From Protonemura montana (lineage: Eukaryota > Arthropoda > Insecta > Plecoptera > Nemouridae): 64,000 nucleotides of DNA. How positions within the stretch are numbered: the first letter of the stretch is position 1; every line of letters begins with the position of its first letter. A program made the translations under genes and the position numbers. Shown here piece after piece: positions 893 through 52,955 of the stretch. The stretch lies in contig OX387609.1 in the NCBI GenBank assembly GCA_947568835.1, positions 1,368,001-1,432,000 of the forward strand. Reading direction: 5' to 3'. The notes under the pieces were generated by a model, which saw only the letters and a list, made by a program, of their open reading frames with translations, searched no databases and was not told the origin of the DNA.

Positions 893-957
893 GATATTTT
901 ATTATTAAGAACACTTATCACAAGCCGGGGATTCGAACCCCGATCGCCGACCGTGAC
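893..957 (-). repeat. tRNA-derived SINE 3' end (B-box half and tail)
   Basis: Read on the minus strand this has a GATCGGGGTTCGAATCCCC block, which is a TpsiC arm with a canonical B box (GGTTCGAATCC). It is followed by a short tail ending TGTTCTTAATAATAAAAT. The same arrangement of B box, about 45 bp and a TAATAATAAAA end closes the tRNA-like array at 36.8 kb. The A-box half is missing. At about position 957 it joins the body of a 5S-body element, replacing that element's normal tail, so this is a chimeric or nested junction. Confidence 0.6.
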
Positions 958-1440
958 AGGTGCCGGTACGTAGCCTACTCCTGTCGAAGACCAAGGGGAC
1001 CACCGGCTTAACATCCCTTCCGAAGGACGGTACAACGCGAACAACAGGATTCCTCCACAAATCCATGCTGTCGAGAGGTTGATAAGCAAGACGAGTGAAG
1101 TTGCTGTACTAACTTTCATCCCTCCAACCTCTCTCCCGAACAGAACTGGTCATGTGTATGATGGTCACCCATCCAATACCTGACCCAGCGCAGTGTTGCT
1201 TAACTTTCATCCCTCCAACCTCTCTCCCGAACAGAACTGGTCATGTGTATGATTGTCACCCAACCAATACCTGACCCAGCGCAGTGTTGCTTAACTTTCA
1301 TCCCTCCAACCTCTCTCCCGAACAGAACTGGTCATGTGTATGATTGTCACCCATCCAATACCTGACCCAGCGCAGTGTTGCTTAACTTTCGTGATCTCAC
1401 GAGGACCGGTATTTTCAACACGACAAACCGTTCGGTTTTT
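958..1440 (-). repeat. 5S-body element, copy 1
   Basis: On the minus strand the order is a 5S-like head (ACCGGTCCTCGTGAGATCAC, near 1395-1420), three units of about 91 bp carrying the 5S-type control region, and the unique body (about 958-1115). The usual tail is replaced by a tRNA-like SINE end. The body matches the copies at 32.8, 38.2 and 47.0 kb nearly base for base. A short open frame across the body is present in most copies but is not credible as a gene. No transposase or reverse transcriptase is encoded, so mobilisation must be in trans. Confidence 0.85.
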
Positions 1441-4400
1441 GTTGTATTTAAAAATGATAATTTATACGTCTGAACTTCTCAACAAATTTAATCAAGCTTT
1501 ATAAATATGTTGCCAATATGGCGGCTGCTATTTTCTGTGTCATAGTTGGGTATAAAATTCTTAACATTCTATTTTAATCGCTTAGTCAAGGAATGTCAAG
1601 TACTCTTGTGCTGAATTTGGACCACGATGCAACTAAATATTGATTCAAGATGCTTTTATGCATTCCTATGTTCAGGTATTTGCTATTTATGCTTACAAGC
1701 CACTCTTTTACAAACAAATATCGATGCTCTTTTTACTCTCCAATGCAACGCTTTCACAGAGCTATTTCAAATACCAGCTTCTAAACTGCACTGGAAGGTA
1801 TTTGCTAGCTAGGAAAACATCCAAATATGTCCAATTTCACTGCAAAAAATATCGATTTTAAGTCTTTTTTTTTTCTTCCAACATTCTTAAACGAGCAACG
1901 CGTAAATTTCAGTCGTGCGACGCATAAACTGTCAAAATCTTGTCCACAACAAATTTTTTTTTATATACACGTCGTTTCGTCGACCAGCTTTTCCATGTGA
2001 GCGAATTTCCTTAGCGGCATTATCTCGAATCGACGCTTTTATGGTTTTTCAGTTTCGTGTAAAGAAGTTTTTGACGTGAAACCCTTGGGCAATAGATCAT
2101 GCATATATTCGGCCATCTTTGCCGTATGCACCCATATCATGTCATCGCTTGTATATATAGACTCAGCCAGCCGTACGTCAAGCATGGTAAATAAACCGGA
2201 ACATGACATATACCTTTCATGATGCTTACCGTATACCATTGCTATAGGGATATAGGAGAAGTTTATTCCCAAAGGAAATTGCTTGCTGCTATGGGATTAT
2301 GACGACACCAAGGTTTAAAAGAAAAAGAGGGAGTTTATACAAATGTAGTAGTAATTTTTTTGCATATTTTTATAGCTGACTTAAAATACATGAAAATAAA
2401 GCGATTATTTTCCTGGACAATTTTCTGAACCTGTTTGTCCGTTTGAATGAAAATCGAAACCCCGTTCTCGCCCAAAATGGATTAAAGACTGATTTTCCTG
2501 TAAGCTCTACAACATTTCCTAGCATTTTGAACCCTTGCATGATATTGCTTCGTCAATCATTTATATTATTCAACAACGTCGTTACACATTGCTCACATAG
2601 TGCGTGAAACTCGTTCAACGGCGCACTGTAAATTTGCTCGTGTGTCCACACTTTAATTAGACGATAGGATTTAGTGACAGAATGTGGCAATTATTTAGTA
2701 ATTCCTGAAATTTTCATGACTTTTAATTATGTTTGTTAGATGATTTTGTGTGTTATTTTGTGAACTCATAGCCCGTTATATGGCATGGAAATATCACGAG
2801 CACCATTCGCGGAATACATTTCCCTTTACCATGAGTACTATAGTTTATTTGCCGTGGCATCATTTCAGTGGGAATTCACTCTGAAATCCTCTGCTAAAAA
2901 CATATTTTTGTCGCACACGTGGCTTTAGTCAAAACCGGCAAAACTAACTCTTGAATTTCATTACAACAAACGCGTTTTATTATGATGATACGTCGTAAAC
3001 ACGATATCATCTTAGACATGTATATATTCGCTTGCCGCCATTTTCTGTCTGGCGTTTTGAACAACCCTGCTTTTATTGTCTTCCCTTTTACATCTTGAAG
3101 AAACCCGTAGTCAGAATACTTGACCAAAACTACTGAACCAGCAAAGAACCATAACACTTTTTGACAGCATACTTGTGTATAACTTGATATAAAATGTATC
3201 CTATTTACATATATGTACCGTCGTTCAGTTTTATAATAGCTTCATGTTGCGTTTTCCCACGAACCGGCCTATGCCACGTTATTGGAACGTCGGTGACGTA
3301 TTGCTTGATCTATGGAAGTGCTATAATTTGATAAATTGCTCACGTTTTTTCTTTTCTTCGCTATCGAGAAGCCCGGTCAGGCCTATCGCCTCCCTGCAGC
3401 CTCTGGTTCGGCTCTTTCCAGTGGGAATCCGAGAGGGGACCTCCCTATGTCGCGCTATGCTGTCCAGACATATTATAGATACCAATATTGTGGGACAAAT
3501 GTTTTTCTGGATAGAGTCTATCGTATTTTCCACTGGACCATTAGTTTGAAAATATATTTATGACAGAATGGAGATCGAATTGGGAGCTTAAAATTATTTA
3601 TAGCGTTTAAATATTGTTTAAATGAAGCTTAAAGGTACTTAAAGACAATTTAAGCATAGCTCTAAACTGGTAAATATGAAACATTTTAACTGTATTTAAT
3701 TAATTTTTTACTATTAGCTAACTTCCAAAAAAACACAGTATTTTATGTCAGTTCCTCTCTTCTGGCATGTTTTATTTAATTACAGATATTTTCCTCTATA
3801 ATTAGCAATTATTAGACAACTAAACATCTTAAAAATCTTTAAAAAACCTCCAAAAAAGTCAATAAAAGCAGCCATATCTGTTGTACTCAGCTCCCTTACA
3901 TTTGTTATGTTACAAACCGACCATGGCACCTCTCTCTCCTTCCTTATACCTCTGAATCAACGCCTCCCAAATCTCGCCTGCATCCCACGAGGGGTTCCTT
4001 CACACTCAAGATGATCATCTCAGGTGTGTGCGAGCAAGACCACATCGTCGCCTCGTCCCCAGATCCTTGTCAACATAATAATCTGCGTGTTATTGAGTTC
4101 TCCGCCCACCCACTAGGGGGAAGACATCTTAAGAACGTTGTCAACGTCTTATAATCATTTCGTCCTGGCAATTTTCAGGTAGCGCTTCAGGGCACGAGAT
4201 TACTATTCCTGGTTTTGCCCGGAACTTTGCCGAGTTCCTTGGTTTGGGAGCGGAAAATCCGATTTGTAGAATCACATGCAAAGTGTGTCGTCTCATTTTC
4301 ACGTTAGAAACGTTGGGACGAGATTGGTGGGATCAGTGAACAGTGATTCTCATCTTATTGGTCGTTTGGTAATGGCTTTTATTTCGCCAAAACAAATTTA

Positions 4401-5006
4401 GGTTATCGTTTGTTTTTTTCTTTGCTAATTAGTAAACCAGTTTCCTCTTTTTTCTGAGAAGATTACAGGAAAAAGCCGGCTAAAATCCGAGAGATGCGGG
4501 AAATTCCAATTGCGCTAATGAGTGAAAAATTGTCTGGAATTTCCATATTAGTCGCGCGCACGTTCTCGGGAAACTTAATTACAAAATGGCCGTTTGCACA
4601 AAATTAAACACTGGTTGGCTGGACTTGACCGTGGTTCTAAATCGAGTTCAAATTGAAAGTATAAAGACTGGCGCAATGCACGCTCTAACTCGCTGACAAT
4701 GAGCTGCATAGTTGAGCCCAGACTTTAACCAGTTTGTTAACAAGTTAAGCCATTAATTACTGATTAAATTGTCCAGAGCGAACTCGCCGTCTCTGTCCCG
4801 TGCACGCGAGTGCAACGCCTTTATGTCTCGCTTACTCTTTGCGCCAATTTGCTCGCGCACTCGACGTGAAAGTGCATTCCGTTGCATTTTGCTCACGTCT
4901 CGATGCGTTTCGACAAAGTGCATTGCCTTGGAATGGACTGTTGGACGTAAGTGCGTTCTGCTAAACTCTTCAGTCGAGAGACCAACGTCCATATCGAACA
5001 CTTTGT
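1441..5006. other. Single-copy stretch, no gene identified
   Basis: Repeat-free within the window. Most of it is AT-rich. Two blocks are less AT-rich and more complex: about 3890-4330, and about 4540-5000, which is rich in CG dinucleotides. The first contains CCACTAGGGGGAAG at 4110-4123, close to the CTCF core consensus. Open frames in the second block (for example plus-strand 4769-5032) resemble no family I know, and both strands are open there. These blocks could be conserved regulatory DNA or first-exon DNA; neither is shown. Confidence 0.35.
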
Positions 5007-5454
5007 CGTGTTGGAAACACCGGTTCTCATAAGATCACCGAAGTTAAACAACACTGCGCTGAGTCAGGTATTAGATGAGTGACCATCTTACACATGACCA
5101 GTTCTGTTCGGGAGAGAGGTTGGAGGGATGAAAGTTAAGCAACACTGCGCTGGGTCAGGTATTGGATGGGTGACCATCATACACATGACCAGTTCTGTTC
5201 GGGAGAGAGGTTGGAGGGATGAAAGTTAAACAACACTGCGCTGAGTCAGGTATTGGATGGGTGACCATCATACACATGACCAATTCTGTTCGGGAGAGAG
5301 GTTGGAGGGATAAAAGTTAAGCAACACTGCGCTGAGTCAGGTATTGGATGGGTGACCATCATACACATGATCAGTTCTGTTCGGGAGATAGGTTGGAGGG
5401 ATGAAAGTTAAGCAACACTGCATTGGGTCCGGTATTAGATGGATGACCATCATA
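5007..5454 (+). repeat. 5S-body element, copy 2 (5' part only)
   Basis: It begins with the 5S-like head (GTGTTGGAAACACCGG, then GATCACCGAAGTTAAACAAC) and continues through five units of about 91 bp. Each has box-A-like AAGTTAAGCAACACTG and box-C-like ATTGGATGGGTGACC. It stops inside the fifth unit at ACCATCAT and runs into an ATAAACAAATAAACAAATA stretch, so the body and tail are absent. Confidence 0.85.
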
Positions 5455-8280: not shown

Positions 8281-8315
8281 AAGCCTGACATAAAAAGCCG
8301 ATATTACAAAAATGT

Positions 8316-8400
8316 TTAACTATTAGTTAATCTTCTAGCTCACAGAAACAGCCGACTTTCACTGCGTGCGATTGGAAGTCGTCATAGCAATTAATTAAAA
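8316..8400 (-). repeat. Inverted arm matching the 92 bp array unit
   Basis: The reverse complement reads GCTATGACGACTTCCAATCG, then a CGCAGTGAAAGTC segment and TTTCTGTGAGCTAGAAG, matching the neighbouring 92 bp unit with moderate divergence. The last array unit and this arm form a hairpin centred near 8295. Confidence 0.8.
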
Positions 8401-10556: not shown

Positions 10557-10566
10557 ACTGGGCCTA

Positions 10567-10856
10567 AGTTAAGCAACACTGCGTTGGATCAAGTGCTGAA
10601 TGGGTGACCAGTATACGGTTTGGCGTATTAGAAAGACCGGTCCTCGTGAGATCACCGAAGTTAAGCAACACTGCGTTGGATCAAGTGCTGAATGGGTGAC
10701 CATCATACGGTTTGGCGTATTGGAAAGACCGGTCCTCGTGAGATCACCGAAGTTAAGCAACACTGCGTTGGATCAAGTGCTGAATGGGTGACCATCATAC
10801 GGTTTGGCGTATTCGAAAGACCGGTCCTCGTGAGATCACCGAAGTTAAGCAACAAT
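10567..10856 (+). repeat. 5S-body element, copy 3: three 92 bp 5S-like units plus a partial
   Basis: Units start at 10567, 10659 and 10751, with a truncated fourth at 10843. Each holds GAAGTTAAGCAACACTG and CTGAATGGGTGACC. Unlike the other copies, the spacer here is ACGGTTTGGCGTATTGGAAA, then GACCGGTCCTCGTGAGATCA. That is, each unit includes the 5' part of the 5S-like sequence instead of the TCTGTTCGGGAGAGAGG spacer. This copy is therefore closer to a tandem of whole 5S-like heads. The body and tail are absent. Confidence 0.85.
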
Positions 10857-14663: not shown

Positions 14664-14904
14664 TGTTGTGATTAACGACGCACTGTTTTGACAACTGGCC
14701 CTGCGGCACTGGTCTAATGGCGTCGGTGAATGAGTGGATGAAGATGAGGATGATGATGAACCTAACCTAGCCTAGAAGGGAGGAGGTGAAACCCGGTGCC
14801 GGCACGTAGCCTACTCCTGTCGAAGACCAAGGGGACCACCGGCTTAACGTCCCTTCCGAAGGACGGTACAACTCGAACAACAGGATTCCTCCACAAATCC
14901 ATGC
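14664..14904 (-). repeat. 5S-body element, copy 4: tail and body
   Basis: On the minus strand this is the end of the element: the unique body (GGAAGGGACGTTAAGCCGGT, GGTCCCCTTGGTCTTCGACA, GGAGTAGGCTACGTGCCGGC), a CTAGGCTAGGTTAGG stretch, CATCATCCTCATC, then CACTCATTCACCGACGCCAT, and a terminal CGTCGTTAAT. The 5' side continues into the 36 bp array instead of 5S-like units. Confidence 0.85.
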
Positions 14905-16045
14905 TGTCGAGAGGTTGATAAGCAAGGCGAGTGAAGTTGCTGTCGAGAGGTTGATAAGCAAGGCGAGTGAAGTTGGTGTCGAGAGGTTGATAAGCAAGGC
15001 GAGTGAAGTTGGTGTCGAGAGGTTGATAAGCAAGGCGAGTGAAGTTGCTGTCAAGAGGTTGATAAGCAAGGCGAGTGAAGTTTCTGTCGAGAGGTTGATA
15101 AGCAAGGCGAGTGAAGTTGCTGTCTAGAGGTTGATAAGCAAGGCGAGTGAAGTTGGTGTCAAGAGGTTGATAAGCAAGGCGAGTAAATTTGCTGCCGAGA
15201 GGTTGATAAGCAAGGCAAGTGAAGTTGCTGTCGAGAGGTTGATAAGCAAGGCGAGTGAAGTTGTTGTCGAGAGGTTGATAAGCAAGGCGAGTGAAGTTGG
15301 TGTCGAGAGGTTGATAAGCAAGGCGAGTGAAGTTGCTGTCGAGAGGTTGATAAGCAAGGCGAGTGAAGTTGGTGTCGAGAGGTTGATAAGCAAGGCGAGT
15401 GAAGTTGCTGTCGAGAGGTTGATAAGCTTGGCGAGTGAAGTTGGTGTCGAGAGGTTGATAAGCAAGGCGAGTGAAGTTGCTGTCGAGAGGTTGATAAGCT
15501 TGGCGAGTGAAGTTGCTGTCAAGAGGTTGATAAGCAAGGCGAGTGAAGTTGCTGTCGAGAGGTTGATAAGCAAGGCGAGTGAAGTTGGTGTCGAGAGGTT
15601 GATAAGCAAGGCGAGTGAAGTTGCTGTCGAGAGGTTGATAAGCAAGGCGAGTGAAGTTGCTGTCGAGAGGTTGATAAGCAAGGCGAGTGAAGTTGCTGTC
15701 GAGAGGTTGATAAGCAAGGCGAGTGAAGTTGCTGTCAAGAGGTTGATAAGTAAGGCGAGTGAAGTTGCTGTCGAGAGGTTGATAAGCAAGGCGAGTGAAG
15801 TTGCTGTCGAGAGGTTGATAAGCAAGGCGAGTGAAGTTGCTGTCTAGAGGTTGATAAGCAAGGCGAGTGAAGTTGCTGTCGAGAGGTTGATAAGCAAGGC
15901 GAGTGAAGTTGATGTCGAGAGGTTGATAAGCAAGGCGAGTGAAGTTGCTGTCGAGAGGTTGATAAGCAAGGCGAGTGAAGTTGCTGTCGAGAGGTTGATA
16001 AGCAAGGCGAGTGAAGTTGCTGTCGAGAGGTTGATAAGCAAGGCG
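14905..16045 (-). repeat. 36 bp tandem array, about 31 copies, amplified from the element body
   Basis: The unit as read on plus is GTCGAGAGGTTGATAAGCAA, then GGCGAGTGAAGTTGCT, in 36 bp steps. Normal copies of the element contain this segment once, flanked on both sides by TGCTGT; the array is that segment multiplied. The 36 bp period gives a 12-residue repeat on both strands, including a minus-strand frame of over 400 residues (LAYQPLDSNFTR-type repeat); this is a consequence of the period, not evidence of a protein. The array stops abruptly at GCAAGGCG and the 5S-like part is absent. Confidence 0.93.
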
Positions 16046-16711
16046 ATAATCTTTTATGTAAACTACCAAAGATTAAAAGAAAATGATGAAACGTTGAAGA
16101 AATATTAATGTATACTCTGTTCTTTATAAAGATGTTCTTGATGGCAGTTCTTGAGTTCTAACTTTGGCTCACTTGATCTAAACCGTCTCTTGCCCGACTA
16201 GATTCTGTGCGGTGTTGAAAATCAAACAATCAGCTGATTTTGAAGCTAACACTTGCTGATTCCAAAGCACACTGAACGAGCTCAACGTTCAACTTAATTA
16301 AAAACATCAAGTTCACGTTTATTAAAAGAAAGATTAATATGACGTCATTTGTAATTAGCTGCTCGGAGAGGGTTGGGAAAAATTAAACTCGACTTGGCCA
16401 AGTTTTCAATTGACTTTAAGAGTAAAATGGTACGCTTTCTCCGAGTGAATTACGTGGGGCAGGACTGGGAAATGGGTCGGTTTCATTTTTGAGTGCGATT
16501 TAAATGGAGAGGTTGAAACGGTTGGAGTTTGGAAGTCGATTTATTTATAGATTTTTTCTGACCGACTTCCTATTGAAGTTGATTCTTGAAATAATATTGA
16601 TGCATTTACAAGTGTTTTTGCTGTTCAAATATCAAACGTGCGATAATAAATGAAATTCACCGAATTTGAAAGGAAATGTCAAGAATTTGTCTACAAAAAG
16701 CATGCCAAATT
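16046..16711. other. Single-copy stretch
   Basis: No gene or repeat recognised. Confidence 0.4.
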
Positions 16712-24290: not shown

Positions 24291-25904
24291 GAAAATTACC
24301 GTTTTAATTTTTTACATTTGTATTTAAGGTCATATTCACAATCCTTTTCGAGGTTCAAATAGAAAAAATTTGCTGTTATCGTTGAATTTTTTTTTTTTTT
24401 TGATTGAGTACAAGTCAAAACAAGTCTGACAAAAAAAAAGCTTTGCGCGGTCAATTTTATCTTCTAGCTCTGCAACTTTCTCTCAATCCACCGCAATAAA
24501 TTTCACTTATATTTTCCTCTTCTTTATGCCATAAAACACAGCTAGCTCTAGTTTGTAAATTGATACTTCTGACCGTAGTAGTAATTCCCGAAACCTGTGC
24601 GCTCCGTAGCAATCGATAGACCAACATAACCCCAAAATACCCACGAAATATAAGCCTAGTGATACAATATATTTCATCAGGTCCGTTACTTTTCAAACGC
24701 TACATTTTTTTCTTTTTCTTTGGAGTGTTATGAATGATTTTGGCAACAAACCAGCGCCGATTCTTTAGCAATACCAGCTCGGTCTCACCCCCGTCCTTGC
24801 CACCAATATCAAACAACCACCCAACCCCTTGTATACGTCACAGCCACACGCAACTCTGGGCAAACACACAGAAAGAGAGAATACAACGTAGATGATGCGT
24901 AGCGAAAGTGGAAAAAATAAATAAAATTTAGAAACTTTGTCGGATCGACTTTTTGTGCTGGCAATAGTTTTGAAAAGGGTCATGGAATGGTGGTCACTAA
25001 CGACTGATTTTTTTGAAGCGTAGATATTTTTATAAGTGTTATAAAAAGATTATAAACTCGATTGTTTAGATGTTTTAATCTGCTTATAAATACAAATGGT
25101 AAATGTTTTTCACGGAGTAGTTCATCTGTTTTTAATTTGATTATTTGAACATTTGAAATTGAGAACATTGAAACTATGCTTTAATAACTGCGACTGGGAA
25201 AATATTGATTTGTAAAAGAGCTTTGGAGTTTTGAGCTATATGGGACCGGTGACCTATAGCATTGACATTTGCCCATGTCGAGAGAAACGTAGACTTAGAG
25301 TTAGAATATAATCAGGTACAAAGGAAAAGTAAAGCTTCCATAAAAGCCTGTTCGTTACTGATGTCGGTACTGAAAAATGCCCCTCAAAGCGCGGAAAATG
25401 TAACACAAAATGCAGCAGTAAGTACCTACCATTCTGCTCGAACTAAAATGTATTTGAAAACCGTGTTGGGACAGGAAATTATAGTTATACAAATCTGATT
25501 ATTAAAGATAACCAGAAATAGATTTATATTTGCTGAAAATCCTATTTAAAAAAGTGCTCACTTTACTCCAAGGCAGTAAAATAGTAAGAAAAAGAAGCTG
25601 GTATCGAATGAGATTTAGATTTTACATTCAAACTGTCATCTTCAGCGTGTAAAGTGTTATTTCTGTGCAGAAAAACAAAACTATAAGCGACGATATTTGG
25701 AAAACTCCTTCAAAATATCACCGTTTTAGAAAGAATAATAGTTTGTTTGTTTGTTTTTTATTTGAATATATTTAGAACAAAAAACAAGATGTCAGACTTT
25801 CAAACTTGCCTGAAATTCGGGATGTTATTTCCATTCCACATCTTGTACCGTGCCAAATAAAGTTATGACGAGGAACAGTGACGTCATCGCGTGGAACTTA
25901 AACT
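24291..25904. other. Single-copy stretch
   Basis: No recognisable gene. Small frames on both strands (for example 24457-24696 minus, 25262-25498 plus) match nothing I know. Confidence 0.35.
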
Positions 25905-26852
25905 GGCGTGTTGGAAACTCCGGTCCTCGTGAGATCACCGAAGTTAAGCAACACTGCGCTGAGTCAGGTATTGGATGGGTGACCATCATACACATGACCA
26001 GTTCTGTTCGGGAGAGAGGTTGGAGGGATGAAAGTTAAGCAACACTGAGCTGGGTCAGGTATTGGATGGGTGACCATCATACACATGACCAGTTCTGTTC
26101 GGGAGAGAGGTTGGAGGGATGAAAGTTAAGCAACACTGCGCTGGGTCAGGTATTGGATGGGTGACCATCATACACATGACCAGTTCTGTTCGGGAGAGAG
26201 GTTGGAGGGATGAAAGTTAAGCAACACTGTGCTGGGTCAGGTATTGGATGGGTGACCACCATACACATGACCAGTTCTGTTCGGGAGAGAGGTTGGAGGG
26301 ATGAAAGTTAAGCAACACTGAGCTGGGTCAGGTATTGGATGGCTGACCATCAAACACATGACCAGTTCTGTTCGGTAGAGAGGTTGGAGGGATGAAAGTT
26401 AAGCAACACTGCGCTGGGTCAGGTATTGGATGCGTGACCATCATACACATGACCAGTTCTGTTCGGGAGAGAGGTTGGAGGGATGAAAGTTAAGCAACAC
26501 TGCGCTGGGTCAGGTATTGGATGGGTGACCATCATACACATGACCAGTTCTGTTCGGGAGAGAGGTTGGAGGGATGAAATTTAGTACAGCAACTTCAGTC
26601 GCCTTGCTTATCAACCTCTCGCCAGCATGGATTTGTGGAGGAATCCTGCTGTTCGAGTTGTACCGTCCTTCGGAAGGGACGTTAAGCCGGTGGTCCCCTT
26701 GGTGCTCTTCGACAGGTGTAGGCTACGTGCCGGCACCGGGCTTCCTTTACTCCCTTATAGGCTACGTTTGGTTCATGATCATCCACTCATTCACCGACGC
26801 CATTGCACTAGTGTCACATGGCCAGATTCGAAACAATGCGTCGTTAAACACC
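25905..26852 (+). repeat. 5S-body element, copy 5 (most complete, reference copy)
   Basis: It starts with the 5S-like head (GGCGTGTTGGAAACTCCGGT, CCTCGTGAGATCACCGAAG). Seven units of about 91 bp follow, from 25941 to about 26570. Next come the body (about 26573-26760: GTACAGCAACTTCAGTCGCC, CTTCGGAAGGGACGTTAAGC, GGCTACGTGCCGGCACCGGG), then ACTCATTCACCGACGCCATT, and the tail TGCGTCGTTAAACACCACAA. The distance between box-A-like GAAGTTAAGC and box-C-like TTGGATGGGTGACC is the same as in ordinary 5S rRNA genes. This layout fits a SINE3-type (5S-headed) element whose head has been multiplied. Confidence 0.88.
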
Positions 26853-27828
26853 ACAAATCAAGTGTGTTTTTGCCAGAATGTGTCATTCTTGCAAGTAAAG
26901 ATTCGAGTTGTTTTTCCTGATTCAGCAAATCTTTTTTTTATTTGGGATATTTCTTTGTTTACCCAGTTCTCACCAAGACATTTCTAGAGAAATATTTGTT
27001 CTATCTCTTGATAGCTGCCTCTTGATTCGCACGATCGCTGTTTGCTTGAAGCTCGCGACGGAAATGCCTCGGCGTTAAATCGAACCTAGGCGGTGAAATT
27101 AGATCAAGTAGGGCTCTGTAATTGAATCGAGGGCACTTACGTGTCGTCTACATTTACTTTCGTACAAAACCTAATTACTGTCATACATTTTTATATTGGT
27201 GATAAAAAATGTGAATCTAATTTAGATTTGAGCGTGCCATCAGGCGTGAAATCGATTGCTTTGATATAAAAGTTGAAATCGAGTTAAATTCAAACTTAAT
27301 GCTTGCCGACCAGTGTGAAAAATTATGACCCAAATTCTAAAATCAAACCCATTTCTAATTGTAAATTATGTTCAGAAGGATTTTTATAAATTTTTTATAG
27401 TTTTTTTTAAACGTCCCCTCTAAAAAATATGTACCCGTTCGGGAAATTGTAAACAATACCGGATTGGAATGAACTCTGTTTGAGTGAAACTTTCTAGCAA
27501 TAAACCGAAATGGAAAGAGCCCGAATGGGAACACATTTTTTAAGAATAGTCTAGTGTCCATTATACCAAAAAATTCAGTGCGTTGATTTCCTATAAAATT
27601 CAGAAATAAATTTGCCAAAACTATAACTTTAATAGCCGCTATCTGATTGGTAGTTACCGACAGGGGCAAGTCTTTAATTGGTTGTCATCTTTTGAACCAG
27701 ACACTCGCAAACAGACCCCAAGCATTTTAACAACAGTAATTAGAATTCGTTCATGTAATTAATATATTGTTACTTTTGTGTTAGCATTGAACCTCGTGGT
27801 CATTGTATGACTCAGATTCTGTCATATG
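26853..27828. other. Single-copy stretch
   Basis: No gene identified. About 27000-27140 is repeat-free and less AT-rich than its surroundings, a possible conserved element. The rest is AT-rich. Confidence 0.35.
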
Positions 27829-27872: not shown

Positions 27873-27969
27873 TTACATCGCTGATCCCCAGGCACATCCA
27901 CAATTCAATATTTACAGTTGCTGTTTGGTAGGAGACCACAAACCTTGACCAGCATTGCTTGTCCTGTTT

Positions 27970-31344: not shown

Positions 31345-32782
31345 CAGCACAGTCGTCCCCATGGGCAGGATAGTGTTTCCACGGTGTTGACAAACTTTAG
31401 GGACAATTCGACTCATTTTCGACGGCTGCTAGCGAAGCGGCAAAATTGAGGTCGTTTCTTTTCTAAGAGAATGACGTAAGAGATGAAAGTTTTTTGAGTT
31501 TTCAAGATTGATACACAGTTTCGAATGGGAAAGTTGAAAGAGCGCTTTTCTAGCCGAATTGAGAAAAGTGACAATGTTTGGAAGTTTGTTTCTGTGATTG
31601 AAACCTCGTTATTCATCCGGTTAATAATAAAAAAAAAAGCATAAATTTGTTTTACCTTGCACCGAACTTTGCCATTTCTTCAAAGTGACAGTCAAACTAT
31701 TTACTAAGAATACTGATCACAACAGATTGTGTTTTGTCTTCAATTCGATTTCATTCCAAACATTTGAAAGTAAATGCAAGTTGTGTTTTGAAAGTCACGG
31801 AAGAGACGTTATCAGAAAATGATGTTCAGATGTTCTCGATAAAGAATAATTGTAAAGACAATGAGTCAATTGTAGTTGCATCTGGTTTATTTTTAACTCC
31901 AGGAATCAGATCTAAGAGCCGAACAAATGACGTTCAGAGATGAATTATCTTGAGGTGTTTCTGACTCCAGATCGACCTAGTTTCTGTGGGATTCCTCGAC
32001 TTCTTGGTCATTTGATTTGCTTCTTAGCGTCTCACTTTTAGATTGGTAGAAGTCCTGCGGGCTCAAGTTCGGCTAGATGTTCAATTTGATTAAAAAAATT
32101 TCACTTATTTTCTTCACCAAGATAGATTTTAAAACCCTATATCCTCGATTGCTATTGGAAACCAAATAGTACTCAACTATATCGCTTTTAACGCTTAATA
32201 CTTGCCGTGAATTAAAAAAAAAAATCTTTTAAACCGAACGTGAAGATTTTTTAATAATCTGCAACTGAGTTCCCGCTTCAGCGCGCCCCCCCCCATCCCC
32301 CCCCCCCCACCACCCGACGAAATGGTCCCTACACAAATCCTCAGGGCGTGTCGTGATTTATTGCAGAATGGCAAGTCTATAGGACGCAATCTCCAGTTCT
32401 AAGTTGATTCAAATGGAAATTTACATTCAAAATGCTTAACATATGCATTGTTTCCGCTTCGCTAGATGGCAGAAATTGTAACGTGGAAAACGGTAGGCGA
32501 GCTGGTACCCGTGTGCTTCGAAATGCTCATATTTGGTACACTCCCAGTCAAAAGTCCGCAGGCAGAAAAAGTCACAGCCGGGAAGATTGAAGGCTGCATT
32601 GAGTTGTTTAGCCATTTTGCCTGAGCTTGGCATGGAACGCTACTTTGACGATTTTATGTTGTAAGAATTGGCCTATTCTGACTTTCTTAACAGATAATTG
32701 AACCTGGAAACTGAATGCAGGTAAAGTTCAGTGCAACATTTAAAAAAAAATCAAAACTACCGAAGACAGGAGGAGGGTACAC
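31345..32782. other. Single-copy stretch with a C-rich tract
   Basis: No gene identified. A C-rich homopolymer-like tract lies at 32286-32311. Confidence 0.4.
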
Positions 32783-33425
32783 ACGGTGCCGGCACGTAGC
32801 CTACTCCTGTCGAAGACCAAGGGGACCAACGGCTTAACGTCCCTTCCGAAGGACGGTACAACGCGAACAACAGGATTCCTTCACAAATCCATGCTGTCGA
32901 GAGGTTGATAAGCAAGGCGAGTGAAGTTGCTGTACTAACTTTCATCCCTCCAACCTCTCTCCCGAACAGAACTGATCATGTGTATGATGGTCACCCATCC
33001 AATACCTGACTCAGCGTAGTGTTGCTTAACTTTTATCCCTCCAACCTCTCTCCCGAACAGAACTGGTCATGTGTATGATGGTCATCCATCCAATACCTGA
33101 CTCAGCGCAGTGTTGCTTAACTTTCATCCCTTCAACCTCTCTCCCAAACAGAACTGGTCATGTGTATGATGGTCATCCATCCAATACCTGACCCAGCGCA
33201 GTGTTGCTTAACTTTCATCCCTCCAACCTCTCTCCCGAACAGAACCGGTCATGTGTATGATGGTCATCCATCCAATACCTGACTCAGCGCAGTGTTGCTT
33301 AACTTTCATCCCTCCAACCTCTCTCCCGAACAGAACTGGTCATGTGTATGATGGTCACCCATCCAATACCTGACCCAGTGTAGTGTTGTTTAACTTCGGT
33401 GATCTTACTAATACAGCAAACCGTT
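32783..33425 (-). repeat. 5S-body element, copy 6
   Basis: Minus strand: a diverged 5S-like head (AACGGTTTGCTGTATTAGTA, then AGATCACCGAAG), five 91 bp units and the full body. It stops near the CCGGCACCG of the body, so the CATCATC stretch and tail are missing. Units differ at scattered positions (CTGAGTC versus CTGGGTC; GGATGACC versus GGGTGACC). Confidence 0.87.
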
Positions 33426-38099: not shown

Positions 38100-38966
38100 G
38101 TTGAGTTATGAAGTTGGTGATTGAGTGGATGATGATGAACCTAACCTAGTCTAGAAGGGAGGAGGGGAAACCCGGTGCCGGCACGTAGCCTACTCCTGTC
38201 GAAGACCAAGGCGACCGCCGGCTTAACGTCCCTTCCGAAGGACGGTACAACGCGAACAACAGGATTCCTCCACAAATCCATGCTGTCGAGAGGTTGATAA
38301 GCAAGGCGAGTGAAGTTGCTGTACTAACTTTCATCCCTCCAACCTCTCTCCCGAACAGAACTGGTCATGTGTATGATGGTCACTCATCCAATACCTGACC
38401 CAGCGCAGTGTTGCTTAACTTTCATCTCTCCAACCTCTCTCCCGAACAGAACTGGTCATGTGTATGATGGTCACCCATCTAATACCTGACTCAGCGCAGT
38501 GTTGCTTTACTTTCATCCCTCCAACCTCTCTCCTGAACAGAACTGGTCATGTGTATGATGGTCACCCATCCAATACCTGACCCAGCGCAGTGTTGCTTAA
38601 CTTTCATCCCTCCAAACTCTCTCCCGAACAGAACTGGTCATGTGTATGATTGTCACCCATCCAATACTTGACCCAGCGCAGTGTTGCTTAACTTTCATCC
38701 CTCCAACCTCTCTCCCAAACAGAACCAGTCATGTGTATGATGATCACCCATCCAGTACCTGACCCAGCGCAGTGTTGCTTAACTTTCATCCCTCCAACCT
38801 CTCTCCCGAACAGAACTGGTCATGTGTATGATGGTCACCCATCTAATACCTGACCCAGCGCAGTGTTGCTTAACTTTCATCCCTCCAACCTCTCTCCCGA
38901 ACATAACTGGTCATGTGTATGATGGTCACCCATCCAATACCTGACTCAGCGCAGTGTTGCTTAACG
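38100..38966 (-). repeat. 5S-body element, copy 7
   Basis: Minus strand: seven 91 bp 5S-like units (about 38340-38966), the full body (about 38170-38335), then CTAGACTAGGTTAGG, CATCATCATCC and a diverged CACTCAATCACC tail. The 5' end stops at GTTAAGCAAC of the first unit, so the head itself is missing. Confidence 0.88.
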
Positions 38967-42337: not shown

Positions 42338-42925
42338 GTGACCATCATACACATGACCAGTTCTGTTCGGGAGAGAGGTTGGAGGGATGAAAGTTAAGCA
42401 ACACTGCGCTGGGTCAGGTATTGGATGAGTGACCATCATACACATGACCAGTTCTGTTCGGCAGAGAGGTTGGAGGGATGAAAGTTAAGCAACACTGCGC
42501 TTGGTCAGGTATTAGATGTGTGACCATCATACACATGACCAGTTCTGTTCGGGAGAGAGGTTTGAGGGATGAAAGTTAAGCAACACTGCGCTGGGTCAGG
42601 TATTGGATGAGTGACCATCATACACATGACCAGTTCTGTTCTGGAGAGAGTTTGGAGGGATGAAAGTTATCACAGCAACTTCACTCGCCTTGCTTATCAA
42701 CCTCTCGACAGCATGGATTTGTGGAGGAATCCTGTTGTTCGCGTTGTACCGTCCTTCGAAAGGGACGTTAAGTCGGTGGTCCCCTTAGTCTTCGACAGGA
42801 GTAGGCTACGTGCCGGCGCCGGGTTTCCTCTCCTCCCTTCTAGACTAGGTTAGGTTCATCATCATCCTCATCATCATCCACTCATTCACCGACGCCATTA
42901 GACCAGTGCCGCATGGCATCACAGA
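42338..42925 (+). repeat. 5S-body element, copy 8
   Basis: It starts inside a unit (GTGACCATCATACACATGAC), followed by three complete 91 bp units, the body (about 42661-42800), a CATCATCATCC stretch, CACTCATTCACCGACGCCAT, and the tail as far as GCATGGC. The 5S-like head and the TTAAACAAC end are missing. Confidence 0.87.
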
Positions 42926-46805: not shown

Positions 46806-47562
46806 TGATTGATTGATTTGTGAAGTTTCACAATTGGTTATGTGGCTTTGGTTTTATGGCGGCGGACGATAGTGAAAATGATTATGAACCTAGTCTAGCT
46901 TAGAAGGGAGAAAAAGAAACCCGATTGCAGCACCGATCTTCCTCCTGTCGAAGAGGACTGATGGGACCACCGGCTTAACGTCCCTTCCAAAGGACGGTAC
47001 AACGCGAACAACAGGATTCCTCCACAAATCCATGCTGTCGAGAGGTTGATAAGCGAGGCGAGTGAAGTTGCTGTACTAACTTTCATCCCTCCAACCTCTC
47101 TCCCGAACAGAACTGGTCATGTGTATGATAGTCACCCATCCAATACCTGACTCAGCGCAGTGTTGCTTAACTTTCATCCCTCCAACCTCTCTCCCGAACA
47201 GAACTGGTCATGTGTATGATGGTCACCCATCAAATACCTGACCCAGCGCAGTGTTGCTTAACTTCCATCCCTCCAACCTCTCTCCCGAACAGAACTGGTC
47301 ATGTGTATGATGGTCACCCATCCAATACCTGACCCAGCGCAGTGTTGCTTAACTTTCATCCCTCCAACCTCTCTCCCGAACAGAACTGGTCATGTGTATA
47401 ATGGTCACCCATCCAATACCTGACCTAGCGCAGTGTTGCTTAACTTTCATCCCTCCAACCTCTCTCCCGAACAGAACTGGTCATGTGTATGATGGTCACC
47501 CATCCAATACCTGACCCAGCGCAGTGTTGCTTAACTTTCATCCCTCCAAACTCTCTCCCGAA
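46806..47562 (-). repeat. 5S-body element, copy 9
   Basis: Minus strand: five 91 bp units ending abruptly at GAGAGAGTTTGGAGG (plus strand CTCTCTCCCGAATGAAC), then the full body, CTAAGCTAGACTAGG, and a diverged tail ending in ACAAATCAATCA. The body has small length differences (GTCCTCTTCGACAGGAGGAA region). Confidence 0.86.
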
Positions 47563-49340
47563 TGAACTGAAGAATGAAATTACAAATGGAGGAATATTCA
47601 CTTTTATTCTGCTTCAAAGTAATACGGTTCTCTCTAAGAAAAAAAAAGCAATGCTTGTAAATACAACCCTTACAAGTGGCGACTTAAAAGGAGCCAACAT
47701 TCTTATTCTTTTTTTGAAATCATCGAGACACATTCTTAAGAATTTGTGAAATTCTTCGAATCCTCTAGAGCGTCTTACGTTGACGGCATTATTTGCAAGC
47801 TTCATTATAATAAATTTCAATGGGAAAGCCGGCTCCACAAATGCCAGGTGCGGTAGCGACAAATAGGTATTGGAAAATCGGAAAAATTGGAAAAATGTCT
47901 CCGGCATTGTCTGTCTGGGAAATAAATGCGTTGACAAAATTGGGCTCGGATAGCACGTACGCACTTTTTGTCACCGCACCGGAAATGAACGTGCTTGATA
48001 ATCTTTTGTCGAAATCACTTGTGTTTTTTGACTTTATAGGTTTTTTTATATATACCTACTTCTACGACAATGCCACATATGCTTGCAAATACTGATTTTC
48101 TATCCTCAGAAATATACACTTTTCCCAAAGTTTTTCTCTGTGAAAATCCGAGATTTATTTAAAGCTTCCAATAGTTTCAAATAAAAAAGGATTGCTAGTA
48201 AATTTTAACTCAAATATATCACAGAAACTGAATTGAAACAAAAGTTTCTGCGATTCTTTTTTTCTGAGAATAACGGTCTCTGAAATTCTTTCAAAACGAA
48301 CCAGTGTTTTCGGCCGCTCGAATCGAGAAGCCCAGGAAAATTAAATGCTCATGAATTATTTAATTGAATTGCTTCAGAATGAATCCCATATTTATGATTC
48401 GAGGTGGAGAGGTGAGCGTTGAGGAGATATGAAAGTGACCACAAGTTTCTTGCCAAAGTGTGGGATCAAGTCCATATAAATAATTCATTAACTTTTCTTA
48501 AAACAGAATTTCATTACATATCTCTAATTCATATCATTTTGAAAAAGGCATTAGTTCTATATTGAAATTTCCGAAAGCTTTTTTCTGTCGTGCTTGTGGT
48601 ATTAATCAATAATTAGTTAAAGCTATTTTGGTGTGAATTGATGAAAATGATCCCGTGAAAAGGTAAAAAGAAAGGGAACGAACTCCAGGTCATTGTTTTC
48701 CTCCAGAATATTGAGAAAGTGAATTCATTTAAAATCTACAATTCCAGGAATGTCAAGAAAATCTAGTGAATGGTGCGCTCCATGCAGATTGGTGGCAAGA
48801 AATGGAGATTGCAAAGCTTTAAATGAATTGCAATAGAAAGACTAAGAAAAGTTACTCTTCAGATTGGCAAAGAAAAAATAAAAACCTCTTATCAAAATAG
48901 CTTAATGGTTTTAAAAAATTTAATTTATCTATATTTATAATATTTTTCGTTAATCTTCGTCGGTACCAACGCGACGGTTTTGTAGTTTTCTTTGCTGGAA
49001 GCATGTTGGCAGACAATTCTGTCAAGAATATTAATTTGTTTCCATCTCCCTTAGCAAAAAAGAGGAATTAGTCGACAAAATGTATGACTTTCCAGTTAAA
49101 AAATGACCAGTTTACCCCCATTACAGTGTCGACTTGTGACCCTTGCCAACCACCGCACCAAACTCTACCCCAAACATGTTCCTCGCTACCATCAAAGTTC
49201 AAGTAGATTAGCAAAAGGTGAAGTAATAAAATCAATAGCCCATGTCCCAGTAATCACCATTCCCAAAAAAAAAAAACGAGCCATCCACTAAATGAAGACA
49301 GACTGACTTTTAACGAAGCGTCCCCCAGAAAAATATCACA
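47563..49340. other. Single-copy stretch with an unusual doubly open segment
   Basis: 47614-48095 is open on both strands: minus 47614-47964 (116 residues) and plus 47820-48095 (91 residues, beginning MGKPAPQMPGAV). Residue composition in both is less biased than in chance frames elsewhere here. I cannot name either product. An exapted or transferred fragment is possible. The rest of the stretch is AT-rich without a recognised gene. Confidence 0.3.
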
Positions 49341-50378
49341 ACCATGAGCCCCTACCCCCGCGAACCATGACCCCCTACCCCGGCGAACCACGACCCCCTA
49401 CCCCCGCAAACCATGAGCCCCTACCCCCGCGAACCATGACCCCCTACCCCGGCGAACCACGACCCCCTACCCCCGCAAACCATGAGCCCCTACCCCCGCG
49501 AACCATGAGCCCCTACCCCCGCAAACCATGACCCCCTACCCCCGCAAACCATGAGCCCATACCCCCGCAAACCATGACCCCCTACCCCCGCAAACCATGA
49601 CCCCCTACCCCCGCAAACCATGACCCCCTACCCCCGCGAACCATGACCCCCTACCCCCGCGAACCATGAGCCCCTACCCCCGCGAACCACGACCCCCTAC
49701 CCCCGCGAACCATGACCCCCTACCCCCGCAAACCATGACCCCCTACCCCCGCGAACCATGACCCCCTACCCCCGCGAACCATGAGCCCCTACCCCCGCGA
49801 ACCATGACCCCCTACCCCCGCGAACCATGACCCCCTACCCCGGCGAACCACGACCCCCTACCCCCGCAAACCATGAGCCCCTACCCCCGCGAACCATGAG
49901 CCCCTACCCCCGCAAACCATGACCCCCTACCCCCGCAAACCATGAGCCCATACCCCCGCAAACCATGACCCCCTACCCCCGCAAACCATGACCCCCTACC
50001 CCCGCAAACCATGACCCCCTACCCCCGCGAACCATGACCCCCTACCCCCGCGAACCATGAGCCCCTACCCCCGCGAACCATGACCCCCTACCCCCGCAAA
50101 CCATGACCCCCTACCCCCGCGAACCATGACCCCCTACCCCCGCGAACCATGAGCCCCTACCCCCGCGAACCACGACCCCCTACCCCCGCAAACCATGACC
50201 CCCTACCCCCGCGAACCATGACCCCCTACCCCCGCAAACCATGACCCCCTACCCCCGCGAACCACGACCCCCTACCCCCGCAAACCATGACCCCCTACCC
50301 CCGCAAACCACGACCCCCTACCCCCGCAAACCATGACCCCCTACCCCCGCAAACCATGACCCTCCACCACCACTAACC
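49341..50378. repeat. 23 bp C-rich minisatellite, about 44 copies, with 391 bp higher-order repeat
   Basis: The unit is ACCATGACCCCCTACCCCCG followed by CGA or CAA. Variants (ATGAGCCCC, CCCCGGCGA, CCACGACC, AGCCCAT) recur in the same order 17 units later: AGCCCAT at 49553 and 49944, and GGCGAACCACG at 49451 and 49842, both 391 bp apart. The C-rich strand has two C-runs of four to five per unit, so i-motif formation, and G-quadruplexes on the other strand, are plausible. Confidence 0.95.
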
Positions 50379-50676
50379 ATGACCGACGAGCGCTAGTTTA
50401 TCAGCGCCATTAATTGGGTCGACCAACCCTTTCGACGTCCTCGTTAGGGGAAATCGAATTAGGGGAGCGCCGGGGTTCGACTCAAAACTCTCCGGGGACT
50501 CGAAAAAAAAACAGCAGCCAACGCATTTTCTCAATCGCGTTGTTGGGCCCGCAGGGCCATGGCCAGAGATTTCCTTGCCTTGTTTTTGTTTACTACCCCG
50601 CACGCAACACGCATCCTGTTTTAATGCGTTACGCATTTGACATGTACTACCGGGGTGAACAGATGACAGAATCATG
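50379..50676. other. Less AT-rich single-copy block
   Basis: GC-richer than its surroundings and repeat-free. It includes CCGGGGTTCGACTC (50471-50484), which resembles a lone B box, but no A box is visible upstream. No gene is recognised. Confidence 0.35.
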
Positions 50677-51112
50677 ATTGATTTGTGTTGTTTAACGACG
50701 CACTGTTGTTGACAATGTGTTTTGTGTGACTAGTCTGTTAAAATTGTGAGACGGACGAAGAGGGTGGTGATGGATCTAGCCTAGAAGCGAAGAGAACCAG
50801 AGGGACCAGAGCCTTAATAGCCCTTTCGAAGGACGGTACAACGCGAACAACAGGATTCCTTCACAAATCCATGCTGTCGAGAGGTTGATAAGCAAGGCGA
50901 GTGAAGTTGCTGTCGAGAGGTTGATAAGCAAGGCGAGTGAAGTTGCTGTCGAAAGGTTGATAAGCAAGGCGAGTGAAGCTGCTGTCGAGAGGTTGATAAG
51001 CAAGGCGAGTGAAGTTGCTGTCAAGAGGTTGATAAGCAAGGCGAGTGAAGTTGGTGTCGAGAGGTTGATAAGCAAGGCGAGTGAAGTTGCTGTCTAGAGG
51101 TTGATAAGCACA
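50677..51112 (-). repeat. 5S-body element, copy 10, with a 36 bp array of 6-7 units
   Basis: Minus strand: tail ending CGTCGTTAAACAACACAAAT (complete 3' end, 50678-50710) and a shortened body lacking part of the ACGTGCCGGCACC segment. Then the same 36 bp segment as in copy 4 is amplified six to seven times (50878-51112). No 5S-like units are attached; a decayed unit-like trace (GACGGTCACCAACCAAACAC) lies at about 51183. Confidence 0.87.
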
Positions 51113-52039
51113 GAGCGAACAGATTTTGTATTATCATTAAATATTAAAGGACACTTCCTCAATTAGAAACGGTAATGAGTATGACGGTCACCAACCAAAC
51201 ACCTGACTCAAACCTTGGAGCCTGATCTAGTTTTTGAGAGATTTTGCACCGCACAAAATATTTTATCAGCTCAAAATTGCTTTGAAATAACACAAAGAGG
51301 GGTCAAAAATGTATTTAAATCAATTGACTGTTTAGCTTTGCAAGGGAAGCAACACTTTTAAATTACTAGTGAAAAATTAATCGTTAATTACACTGGACTT
51401 CATGTCAGTCCAGTGCCTTGTCTCGCAAGTTTAACGGTGTGTTAACATTTAAACAACCTGTTAATCAAATGACCTGGACATTTTACTATTTAACCTTCTA
51501 TAAGAAAGCAAAACACACTGAATGTTCAGCTTTTATGAGTTGTTTATGCTTATTTTTGGTCATTTTAAACGGTTGACTCAGCTTTTAGCGTTTTAACGCA
51601 ATTTTCTCTGCATCATAATGATTATGTTTTTGTTGATAAATGTGGACAGCACGCGCTTTTCCAAGCACTGTGCCGGCTCACGCATACGCACTTAAAACGC
51701 GTTCCAAACACACACACACTTGCATATGCACACACATGCGTGAGCTCGGCTGTTTGGTGCCTTGCAGGAATTATTATACGTGAAAGCACTGGAGGACAAT
51801 GCGGTGTACGTTATAAAAGTAAAAGCCATTAAACCAATGTTGTTTGCAAATAACACGGGCTTTTGGCTTCGTATCTGAGGTTGCGTTTTAACAGCGAAAC
51901 AGATGTCGTTCCCCAAATTTGTAGGTTATGTGGAATTTAAACACTTGAATTTCACATATCTTTTAAAAGTAACGTATCATTACGGTCGTGATACTGGTGA
52001 GTGATTGGGAAAAATGTTGGTATTGATGTTGGTATTAGT
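51113..52039. other. Single-copy stretch
   Basis: No gene identified. An exact 8 bp inverted repeat with a 9 base loop (CACTGGAC/GTCCAGTG) is at 51391-51415, and CA-rich sequence at about 51710-51745. Confidence 0.4.
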
Positions 52040-52955
52040 GTTTCCAACACGCCAAACCGTTCAGTGGTAACCTATCCTATACCTGACTCAGCGTAGTGTT
52101 GCTTAACTTTCATCCCTCCAACCTCTCTCCCGAACAGAACTGGTCATGAGTATGGTGGTCACCCATCCAATACCTGACTCAGCACAGTGTTGCTTAACTT
52201 TCATCCCTCCAAACTCTCTCCCGAACAGAACTGGTCATGTGTATGATGGTCACCCATCCAATACCTGACCCAGCACAGTGTTGCTTAACTTTCATCCCTC
52301 CAAACTCTCTCCCGAACAGAACTGGTCATGTGTATGATGGTCACCCATCCAATACCTGACCCAGTGCAGTGTTGCTTAACTTTCATCCCTCCAACCTCTC
52401 TCCCGAACAGAACTGGTCATGTGTATGATAGTCACCTATCCAATACCTGACTCAGCGCAGTGTTGCTTAACTTTCATCCCTCCAACCTCTCTCCCGAACA
52501 GAACTGGTCATGTGTATGATTGTCAACCATCCAATACCTGACCCAGCGCAGTGTTGCTTAACTTTCATCCCTCCAACCTCTCTCCCGAACAGAACTGGTC
52601 ATGTGTATGATGGTCACCCATCCAATACCTGACCCAGCGCAGTGTTGCTTAACTTTCATCCCTCCAACCTCTCTCCCGAACAGAACTGGTCATGTGTATG
52701 ATGGTCAGCCATCCAATACCTGACCCAGCACAGTGTTGCTTAACTTTCATCCCTCCAACCTCTCTCCCGAACAGAACTGGTCATGTGTATGATGGTCACC
52801 CATCCAATACCCGACTCGGCGCAGTGTTGCTTAACTTTCATCCCTCCAACCTCTCTCCCGAACAGAACTGGTCATGTGTATGATGGTCACCCATCCAATA
52901 CCCGACTCGGCGCAGTGTTGCTTAACGTCGGTGATCTCACGAGGACCGGTGTTTG
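52040..52955 (-). repeat. 5S-body element, copy 11: ten 5S-like units without body
   Basis: Minus strand: it begins with a 5S-like head (ACCGGTCCTCGTGAGATCAC, then CGACGTTAAGC, at about 52920-52955), followed by ten units of about 91 bp. At the far end (52040-52070) the last unit switches to the GAACGGTTTGGCGTGTTGGA spacer, the form seen in copy 3. The body and tail are missing. This is the longest 5S-like array in the window. Two adjacent units share the rare ACCCGACTCGGC variant, indicating recent local duplication. Confidence 0.88.

Follow-up and report, generated by a model that had tools for sequence, protein, structure and literature searches.

The window analysed here is a stretch of 64,000 nucleotides of Protonemura montana contig OX387609.1. 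It contains nine tandem arrays of 91- or 92-bp units related to 5S rRNA, all of which were located by TRF at the places given in the first-pass annotation. The C-box core TTGGATGGGTGACC was found 48 times with at most two mismatches, and 47 of these matches lie within the nine arrays (3, 5, 3, 7, 5, 7, 3, 5 and 9 cores per array). Shuffled controls gave a mean of 0.24 matches and a maximum of 1. The motif GAAGTTAAGC was found 59 times with at most one mismatch, against 5.1 expected. The start-to-start spacing of the boxes is 31 nt (25940 to 25971) and equals that of the 5S genes in this genome, and Rfam 5S rRNA calls are located at the head ends of three of the arrays. These results confirm the 5S-like arrays at nine places and the 5S-type box spacing described in the annotation. 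The total of about 48 units given there corresponds to 47 scored cores, running from the A box to the C box and spread over the nine arrays; the 48th core match is a stray at 57794, outside the arrays.

The features are listed in Table 1. Eight arrays have a 91-bp register, and six of these are joined to a SINE body. The nine places had been regarded as copies of one family, which does not hold for all of them: the ninth array (10566-10854) is a distinct 92-bp head array in another register and has no body, and the arrays at 4995-5454 and 52065-52954 also lack the body. Two more body copies (14668-16046 and about 50788-51210) have 36-bp body arrays instead. A tenth 92-bp array detected by TRF (7633-8282) is unrelated to 5S, and the window region holds many unrelated minisatellites.

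Table 1. Copies and relatives of the 5S-headed element in the window
Position	Strand	Feature	Remarks
959..1436	-	5S-headed SINE with complete head and three 91-bp units	Body interrupted near position 159, after which a tRNA-like 3′ end (judged by eye) follows
4995..5454	+	SINE head, 5 units (last partial), without body	Rfam 5S match 4993-5113; a AAATAAAC-like repeat then adjoins (by eye)
10566..10854	+	92-bp head array, about 3 units, other register, without body	Unit: 5S-like head from near the 5′ end to the C box
14668..16046	-	SINE body, 5S head not found	36-bp body segment repeated in tandem about 32 times
25904..26858	+	Reference copy, 7 units, head present from about position 11 on	Full body and 3′ end
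32769..33405	-	SINE copy, 5 units, head truncated or diverged	Body to about position 175
38116..38965	-	SINE copy of 7 units that starts at a unit boundary	Body to about position 217
42338..42917	+	SINE copy, truncated within array (unit position 40), 3 full units plus a partial one	Body to about position 244
46878..47569	-	SINE copy, truncated within array (about unit position 61-68), 5 full units plus a partial one	Body to about position 204
50788..51210	-	More diverged SINE copy, incomplete body with a 36-bp body array (6.6 copies)	Remnant of a unit at 51165-51210 (78% identity)
52065..52954	-	Head starting at about position 22 or before it, 9 complete units and part of a tenth	Second head fragment in place of body

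The one-unit form of the element is a SINE of about 418 nt, and such copies exist (L044, L045, L055 and L069). Its 5′ end coincides with 5S position +1, and the head is 5S-like as far as GTGACC, where the body follows. The unit consists of the A box, the IE and the core of the C box and a linker of about 45 bp. The C box is altered in its 3′ part. The 3′ end, ...GTCGTTAAACACCACAAAT, is followed by an (AAT)n/(AATC)n tail. According to the alignment of the head and the C-box part with the genome's 5S gene, 72 of 89 aligned positions are identical. The unit scores 28 against this gene, and the highest score among 1,000 single-base shuffles is 16; the kinship of the units with 5S is thus far above chance. 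The body is called unrelated to 5S, the linker being the part that was compared, with no similarity there. The element is judged to be non-coding from its length and origin.

Among 54 copies whose 3′ end is complete, 18 have target-site duplication (TSD)-like repeats with a score of at least 8, against 1.0 expected on re-pairing. With a score of at least 10, they were detected in 12 of 54, against 0.05 expected. The copies bearing them span 1 to 15 units. The only window copy with a complete 3′ end, 25904-26858, shows no clear TSD (score 5); relatives of the window copies carry TSDs, in agreement with independent insertion. The 5′ ends of 79 usable arrays are located within 3 nt of the head start in 36 cases, truncated in the head in 16, at a unit boundary in 9 and inside the array in 18. 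An apparent excess of unit-boundary starts (phases 90 to 4, 10 of 32 array-truncated rows) was left unused, because by eye it seems to be due partly to diverged heads missed by the aligner.

Counting over the 258 Mb of the genome, with at most one mismatch, gave 20,676 unit-unit junctions, 5,201 unit-body junctions and 1,693 head matches, heads of 92-bp arrays included. At least two units are present in 20 of 28 copies selected by the body. The range of 3 to 10 units per copy in the first-pass annotation is valid within the window; elsewhere it extends from 1 to at least 20, the longest array observed having 20 units. These results support the annotation in its view of a 5S-headed SINE-like family with an amplified promoter region and a variable number of units. 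A derived head subfamily with more units was also considered and rejected: the median is 2.5 for the T-type (18 rows) and 1.5 for the C-type (22 rows, some of them one-unit rows of 92-bp arrays), which is no difference (p = 0.41). A giant oriented block on C1 at 30.0-32.2 Mb, suggested by plus-strand-only junctions among the matches listed, was rejected as an effect of the list, because the exact minus-strand match L073:226-256 is absent from it. The nearness of 60 of 61 places to chromosome ends, also taken from listed matches, has little weight for this reason.

The hexamer AAGTTA occurs twice in the one-unit element, 91 bp apart, and the array junctions are located there. The junction homology is 6 bp in each of the 91-, 36- and 15-bp registers, and homology of at least 6 bp is found in only 86 of 39,294 possible duplications of 10-120 bp. 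The 92-bp register has a junction homology of 1 bp only. Two further 6-bp repeats appear to have seeded the 36-bp and 15-bp arrays. Three 6-bp direct repeats in one SINE thus match three array periods, which suggests a simple birth route for minisatellites.

The units differ by 4.3% within arrays and by 5.0% between arrays. The variant at unit site 24 is present in 33% of units; among 53 arrays of at least four units, it is mixed with the consensus in 44 and fixed in none. For the other four common variants, the number of mixed arrays is below that predicted by random draws (25 vs 28.9, 12 vs 20.7, 10 vs 20.7 and 25 vs 33.8 expected), and 59 of 269 rare variants are common to units of one array, against 6.2 in permutations. 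Some of each array must therefore be of local origin or come from its source copy. Uniform arrays were also found (L047, 0.6%; L014, 1.4%; L065, 2.2%). L018 and L028 are one insertion on two chromosomes, with 9 and 10 units and with private variants over several units each. L016 and L022 are identical in the body, in 1 kb of 3′ flank and in six units, beyond which the units, heads and 5′ flanks are different. Such pairs clearly show that arrays alter after insertion.

From the sequence comparisons, we consider the following joint reading probable. The element would be a 5S-headed SINE of the SINE3 kind, whose internal Pol III control region has turned into a variable tandem array. The 6-bp direct repeat AAGTTA would have seeded the 91-bp array. 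Transcription of multi-unit copies would begin at the head, and their mixed arrays would be inserted already assembled, with units then gained and lost by unequal exchange. The element appears to jump with its whole row of units. Pol III would start at the head and may transcribe through all the units, because the consensus, like the one-unit element, has no run of four T. The multi-unit RNA would be inserted by LINE-type target-primed reverse transcription, at times 5′-truncated within the array. The 3′ end of the SINE had no match in the 3′ parts of three LINE copies, which were chosen from 150 scored RT matches. Units may be added or removed by slippage or unequal exchange, also between neighbouring copies. 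The extra units would mainly be a by-product of the repeat structure, and at most they may add factor binding sites to the promoter of the head.

The arrays might instead be minisatellites formed after one-unit insertions, growing in place by slippage, unequal exchange or conversion, so that the SINE would supply only a repeat-prone sequence. The changes seen in L018/L028 and L016/L022, the rare variants common within arrays, the abundance of unrelated minisatellites in the region and the 36-bp and 15-bp arrays of the same element are all in line with growth in place. In 13 multi-unit copies with a TSD score of at least 9, moreover, the TSD pairs differ at 7 of 165 sites (4.2%) and the units by 3.8%; by a crude clock, units identical at insertion would now differ about as observed. 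In all copies, units are 2.4% (at non-CpG sites) and bodies 2.7% off consensus, and such similar values would also follow from independent decay since insertion. However, seven multi-unit copies with perfect TSDs, a subset chosen after the fact, have bodies only 0.94% off consensus (9 of 958 sites) and units 3.5% apart. The wide mixing at site 24 also argues against growth in place, as does the unit number, which shows no correlation with body divergence (Spearman 0.07, 65 copies). We therefore regard arrays made only after insertion as rather unlikely. A point counted against transposition of whole arrays is that gene conversion between copies could mix units without a multi-unit RNA.

The units could also have been multiplied by selection, if additional control regions bring in more Pol III factors or preserve a complete control region in 5′-truncated copies, and multi-unit copies thereby out-transpose one-unit copies. 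The high share of multi-unit copies among those selected by the body agrees with this, and 17 of the 18 arrays that start within the array retain at least two units. Arrays occur in a tRNA-like repeat of this genome as well, with 11,760 junctions, and mouse L1 monomers are described, in the available part of the source, as additive and as preserving the promoter through truncation (PMC6454616). However, the boxes show no special conservation: at non-CpG sites, with site 24 excluded, the A box is 1.8%, the IE 1.9%, the C core 3.6% and the linker 1.7% off consensus. The 5′ ends do not clearly gather at the place where RNA started by an internal unit would begin: 2 of 16 lie within 3 nt of it (p = 0.38), or 4 of 18 (p = 0.055) when two starts inside 15-bp arrays are added. 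As unit number is also not linked to body divergence, selection is an improbable explanation. The promoter cluster, decoy or boundary role proposed in the first-pass annotation finds no backing in these values, and decoy and boundary roles for the extra units are unsupported. If a satellite derived from 5S had acquired a SINE tail without itself retrotransposing, this would account for the three body-less arrays of the window, and for the concentration of body matches near chromosome ends. Of 40 such matches, which scored best among 1,201 candidates and form a better sample than the 61 listed places, 35 lie within 5 Mb of an end, where 44% are expected. However, 72 of 97 array rows lead directly into the SINE body and 25 do not, so that the long arrays are tied to one mobile element, which is not the case in satellite DNA. 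The TSDs, the one-unit copies with complete ends and the thousands of unit-body junctions make such a capture extremely unlikely.

A more far-reaching possibility is that the SINE has evolved an open-ended multi-unit Pol III promoter, with a 5S-type control region in every unit. Its arrays would be inherited via retrotransposition, and unit number would set transcription or guard against 5′ truncation, with the tRNA-like repeat doing likewise in parallel. We hold this to be doubtful, also counting the case in which the array-transposition reading is correct and unit number matters in addition. If true, the promoter would be a Pol III counterpart of the mouse L1 monomers. The thousands of elements form a natural series differing in the number of 5S-type control regions. 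This series makes it testable whether repetition strengthens, buffers or saturates a type 1 Pol III promoter, and it bears on how a retrotransposon inherits a repeat array.

The element has a 5S-derived head with A, IE and C boxes, a body with a defined 3′ tail, TSDs and a dispersed high copy number, as SINE3 elements have. To our knowledge, all other 5S-headed SINEs have one head. The insect SINE3-type SINEs HaSE3, PxSE4/PxSE5 and SINE3-1_TC likewise combine such a head with an unrelated body, and a LINE partner is reported for them (PMC3272025, PMC8010984, in the portions available). In those portions a single head is described, and neither main text uses the word 'tandem', in contrast to the arrays of 1 to at least 20 control regions described here. 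The literature search found no case of a 5S-headed SINE with a multiplied head. The SINE3 kind itself is already known, and the tandem control-region array in a 5S-headed SINE appears to be new. Twin SINE is a tRNA-derived dimer, and we know of no open-ended array in dimeric-head SINEs such as Twin. These SINEs resemble the present element in having more than one promoter-bearing head.

The closest working parallel is the 5′ UTR monomers of mouse L1Md, by analogy and not by membership. These are tandem promoter units whose number varies between copies, with subtypes mixed in one array and with 5′ truncation, and very long arrays are attributed to unequal crossing-over (PMC6454616, in the part available). 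L1Md is an autonomous LINE whose Pol II promoter has units of about 200 bp, whereas the present element is a short SINE with a predicted Pol III-type internal promoter and 91-bp units. Its units do not lie 5′ of an autonomous LINE, because the one-unit element is too short for a LINE. Cassandra and Ajax TRIMs are, in the part of the source available, also mobile elements reusing a 5S control region (PMC10886601); they differ as LTR elements in which the 5S region lies within the LTRs.

According to the copies chosen by the body alone (the non-5S part of the element), the repeat has a classical SINE layout: a 5S-like head, one 91-bp unit in some copies, the body and a tailed 3' end. Exactly one unit is present, for example, in L044, L045, L055 and L069, loci fetched elsewhere in the genome. 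The 5' end, ACCGAACGGTTTGGCGTG..., is aligned with 5S position +1, and the 3' end, ...GTCGTTAAACACCACAAAT, is followed by AAT or AATC repeats. Target-site duplications (TSDs), which the first-pass annotation had proposed looking for, were detected in 18 of 54 copies, against 1.0 on a re-pairing control. In the window, the one copy with a complete 3' end, the sole one testable, scored 5, which counts as no TSD. The 5S-headed SINE-like family with a multiplied head, as originally described, is real: it is a SINE3 variant carrying a variable-number promoter array. A body segment with GGAAGGGACGTTAAGCCGGTGGTCCC lies at window 26577-26750; it may resemble a conserved central domain known from SINEs of other animals.

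All nine 5S-related arrays of 91- or 92-bp units claimed for the window are present, and they hold 47 scored C-box cores, against at most 1 in shuffled sequence. The unit was said to keep normal 5S spacing and to derive from 5S; its A-to-C box distance is indeed 31 nt, equal to that of the 5S gene, and it aligns with the genome's own 5S gene at a score of 28 (at most 16 in single-base shuffles). The A box occupies unit positions 4-18 and IE 21-26, and positions 34-46 match the C box over its initial 13 nt; the limits of the three boxes in the 5S gene were taken as 50-64, 67-72 and 80-97, respectively. The linker showed no 5S similarity (score 7; 95th percentile of linker shuffles, 9). Six of the eight 91-bp arrays in the window continue into the SINE body, and two have no body. 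The genome's 5S genes proper gave 47 scored Rfam matches (best E 2.6e-25). They bunch near contig ends (C11:1-106 kb, C15:8.7-67 kb and C23); those on C11 are of mixed orientation with a spacing recurring at about 9.5 kb, and LINE RT matches are numerous in C11:54-932 kb.

Tandem features in the window and related loci
Feature	Position	Unit
92-bp arrays	window 10566-10854; L055:660-1148	SINE head 5' end (or near) to C box
tRNA-like array	window 36287-36775	nine tandem 52-bp units, each with an A-box-like segment
Minisatellites	window 6222-6836, 7633-8282, 11544-12616, 22423-22735, 27967-28549, 45227-45961, 49340-50384	9 to 92 bp, up to 68 copies

The 29 body-selected loci (L044-L072) gave 28 copies in which unit number was measured. 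One unit was found in eight copies, two in five, three in four and four in five; single copies had 5, 6, 7, 14, 14 and at least 16 units, the last array running off the end of its locus. The array of another locus, L012, has 20 units. Genome-wide counts covered 258 Mb in 34 contigs, of which the window is C12:1368001-1432000; the mitochondrial contig has 15,885 bp, and its COI looks insect-like by eye. Allowing up to 1 mismatch, and so passing over more diverged copies, we counted 20,676 unit-unit junctions, 5,201 unit-body junctions (a ratio of about 4:1) and 1,693 heads, those of 92-bp arrays included. Among the best-scoring 40 of 1,201 candidate body matches, 35 lie within 5 Mb of a chromosome end (44% expected) and 29 within 3 Mb (27% expected).

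Three direct repeats in the one-unit element correspond to array registers. The AAGTTA of the head (5S A-box region) recurs 91 bp further downstream, ahead of the body; ACAGCA likewise recurs after 36 bp, and TGACCA after 15 bp. In a TRF survey of 60 sequences (the window and 59 loci), SINE-like rows had periods of 91 (72 rows), 36 (4), 15 (4), 92 (2) and 180 (2), and a single row was found for each of the periods 13, 42, 49, 121 and 181. These proportions are biased, since half the loci were chosen for likeness to a 91-bp array. Junction homology of at least 6 bp is found in 86 of the 39,294 possible 10-120 bp duplications of the element, and the 91, 36 and 15 registers each have it. The 92 register has 1 bp; the 92-bp arrays show almost no junction homology and are of another origin than the 91-bp arrays. 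The element holds twelve such direct repeats, and therefore most gave no array in the sampled sequences.

The promoter array appears to move as a whole array, and we think that arrays were both inherited through insertion and changed locally. If arrays had instead been uniform at insertion, their units would have diverged later. The TSD clock would allow this: TSD pairs of the 13 multi-unit copies with a TSD score of at least 9 mismatch at 7 of 165 sites (4.2%). Over all copies, units (2.4%) and bodies (2.7%) are alike in distance from consensus, which also fits decay after insertion. However, a post hoc set of seven multi-unit copies whose TSDs are perfect has bodies only 0.94% off consensus. 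Had their units been identical at insertion, a difference of about 1.9% would be expected; the observed average is 3.5% (0.6 to 6.6%). The 13 copies together point the same way, with bodies 1.2% off consensus and a unit difference of 3.8%. We give most weight to the site-24 variant, because this non-CpG variant is carried by a third of units (33%) and is fixed in none of the arrays. It is mixed in 44 of the 53 arrays having 4 or more units, close to the 49.2 given by random draws.

None of the five common unit variants is fixed in any of these 53 arrays. The other four are mixed in 25, 12, 10 and 25 arrays, against 28.9, 20.7, 20.7 and 33.8 expected, and therefore some clustering by array exists. 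Units differ by 4.3% within arrays (1,965 pairs) and by 5.0% between arrays, which favours inheritance. Three results count toward local change. Rare unit variants are shared inside an array in 59 of 269 cases, against 6.2 in permutations. L018 (C1) and L028 (C16) represent a single insertion, carried by a segment that was duplicated (divergence: 5' flank 3.6%, body 3.5%, 3' flank 6.0%); they have 9 and 10 units, and their private variants differ and are spread within each array. L016 and L022 (C15:10.963 and 10.971 Mb), 7.5 kb apart, have identical bodies, 3' flanks identical over at least 1 kb and six identical units, beyond which units, heads and 5' flanks are unlike. From the fetched flanks, we read this pair as a candidate unequal exchange inside SINE arrays.

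Internal starts and conserved boxes were sought as signs that extra units function, and no clear one was found. In 36 of the 79 usable arrays, the start lies no more than 3 nt from that of the head. For 16 arrays, the start falls cleanly inside the array; 2 of these starts are 3 nt or less from the predicted internal-promoter start (p = 0.38). With two starts in 15-bp arrays counted as well, the figure becomes 4 of 18 (p = 0.055). At non-CpG sites, site 24 excluded, the boxes are not more conserved than the linker (A box 1.8%, IE 1.9%, C core 3.6%, linker 1.7% divergence). This comparison of sequences argues against selection on units following insertion; help to transcription of the source element would be a separate matter. 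The decoy or boundary role initially suggested is unsupported. The finding would be of greater interest should unit number prove to affect transcription. Searches of the open-access literature, mostly for 5S heads, found no tandem or multi-unit SINE head, with subscription papers and Repbase outside the search. The word 'tandem' is absent from the main texts of PMC3272025, PMC8010984 and PMC5063351 and occurs twice in that of PMC10886601. The closest working parallel is the mouse L1 monomer promoters, which, according to PMC6454616, vary in number, act additively and are kept through truncation; very long monomer arrays are ascribed there to unequal crossing-over.

Unrelated minisatellites are plentiful in the window and loci, and tRNA-like 52-bp junctions number 11,760 genome-wide (up to 1 mismatch); therefore, tandem amplification is not peculiar to the 5S head here. 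The last unit of the tRNA-like array is complete (Rfam tRNA at 36703-36775). The 52-bp junction also adjoins a true 5S gene in L001, and the 87-bp minisatellite of window 27967 was found again at L014:2933-3878. A COX1-like fragment at window 61388-61777 (C12:1429388-1429777) contains 3 TGA and 2 TAG codons and is probably mitochondrial DNA inserted into the nuclear genome. On C4, longer matches to COX1 lie at 5.76-5.78 Mb.
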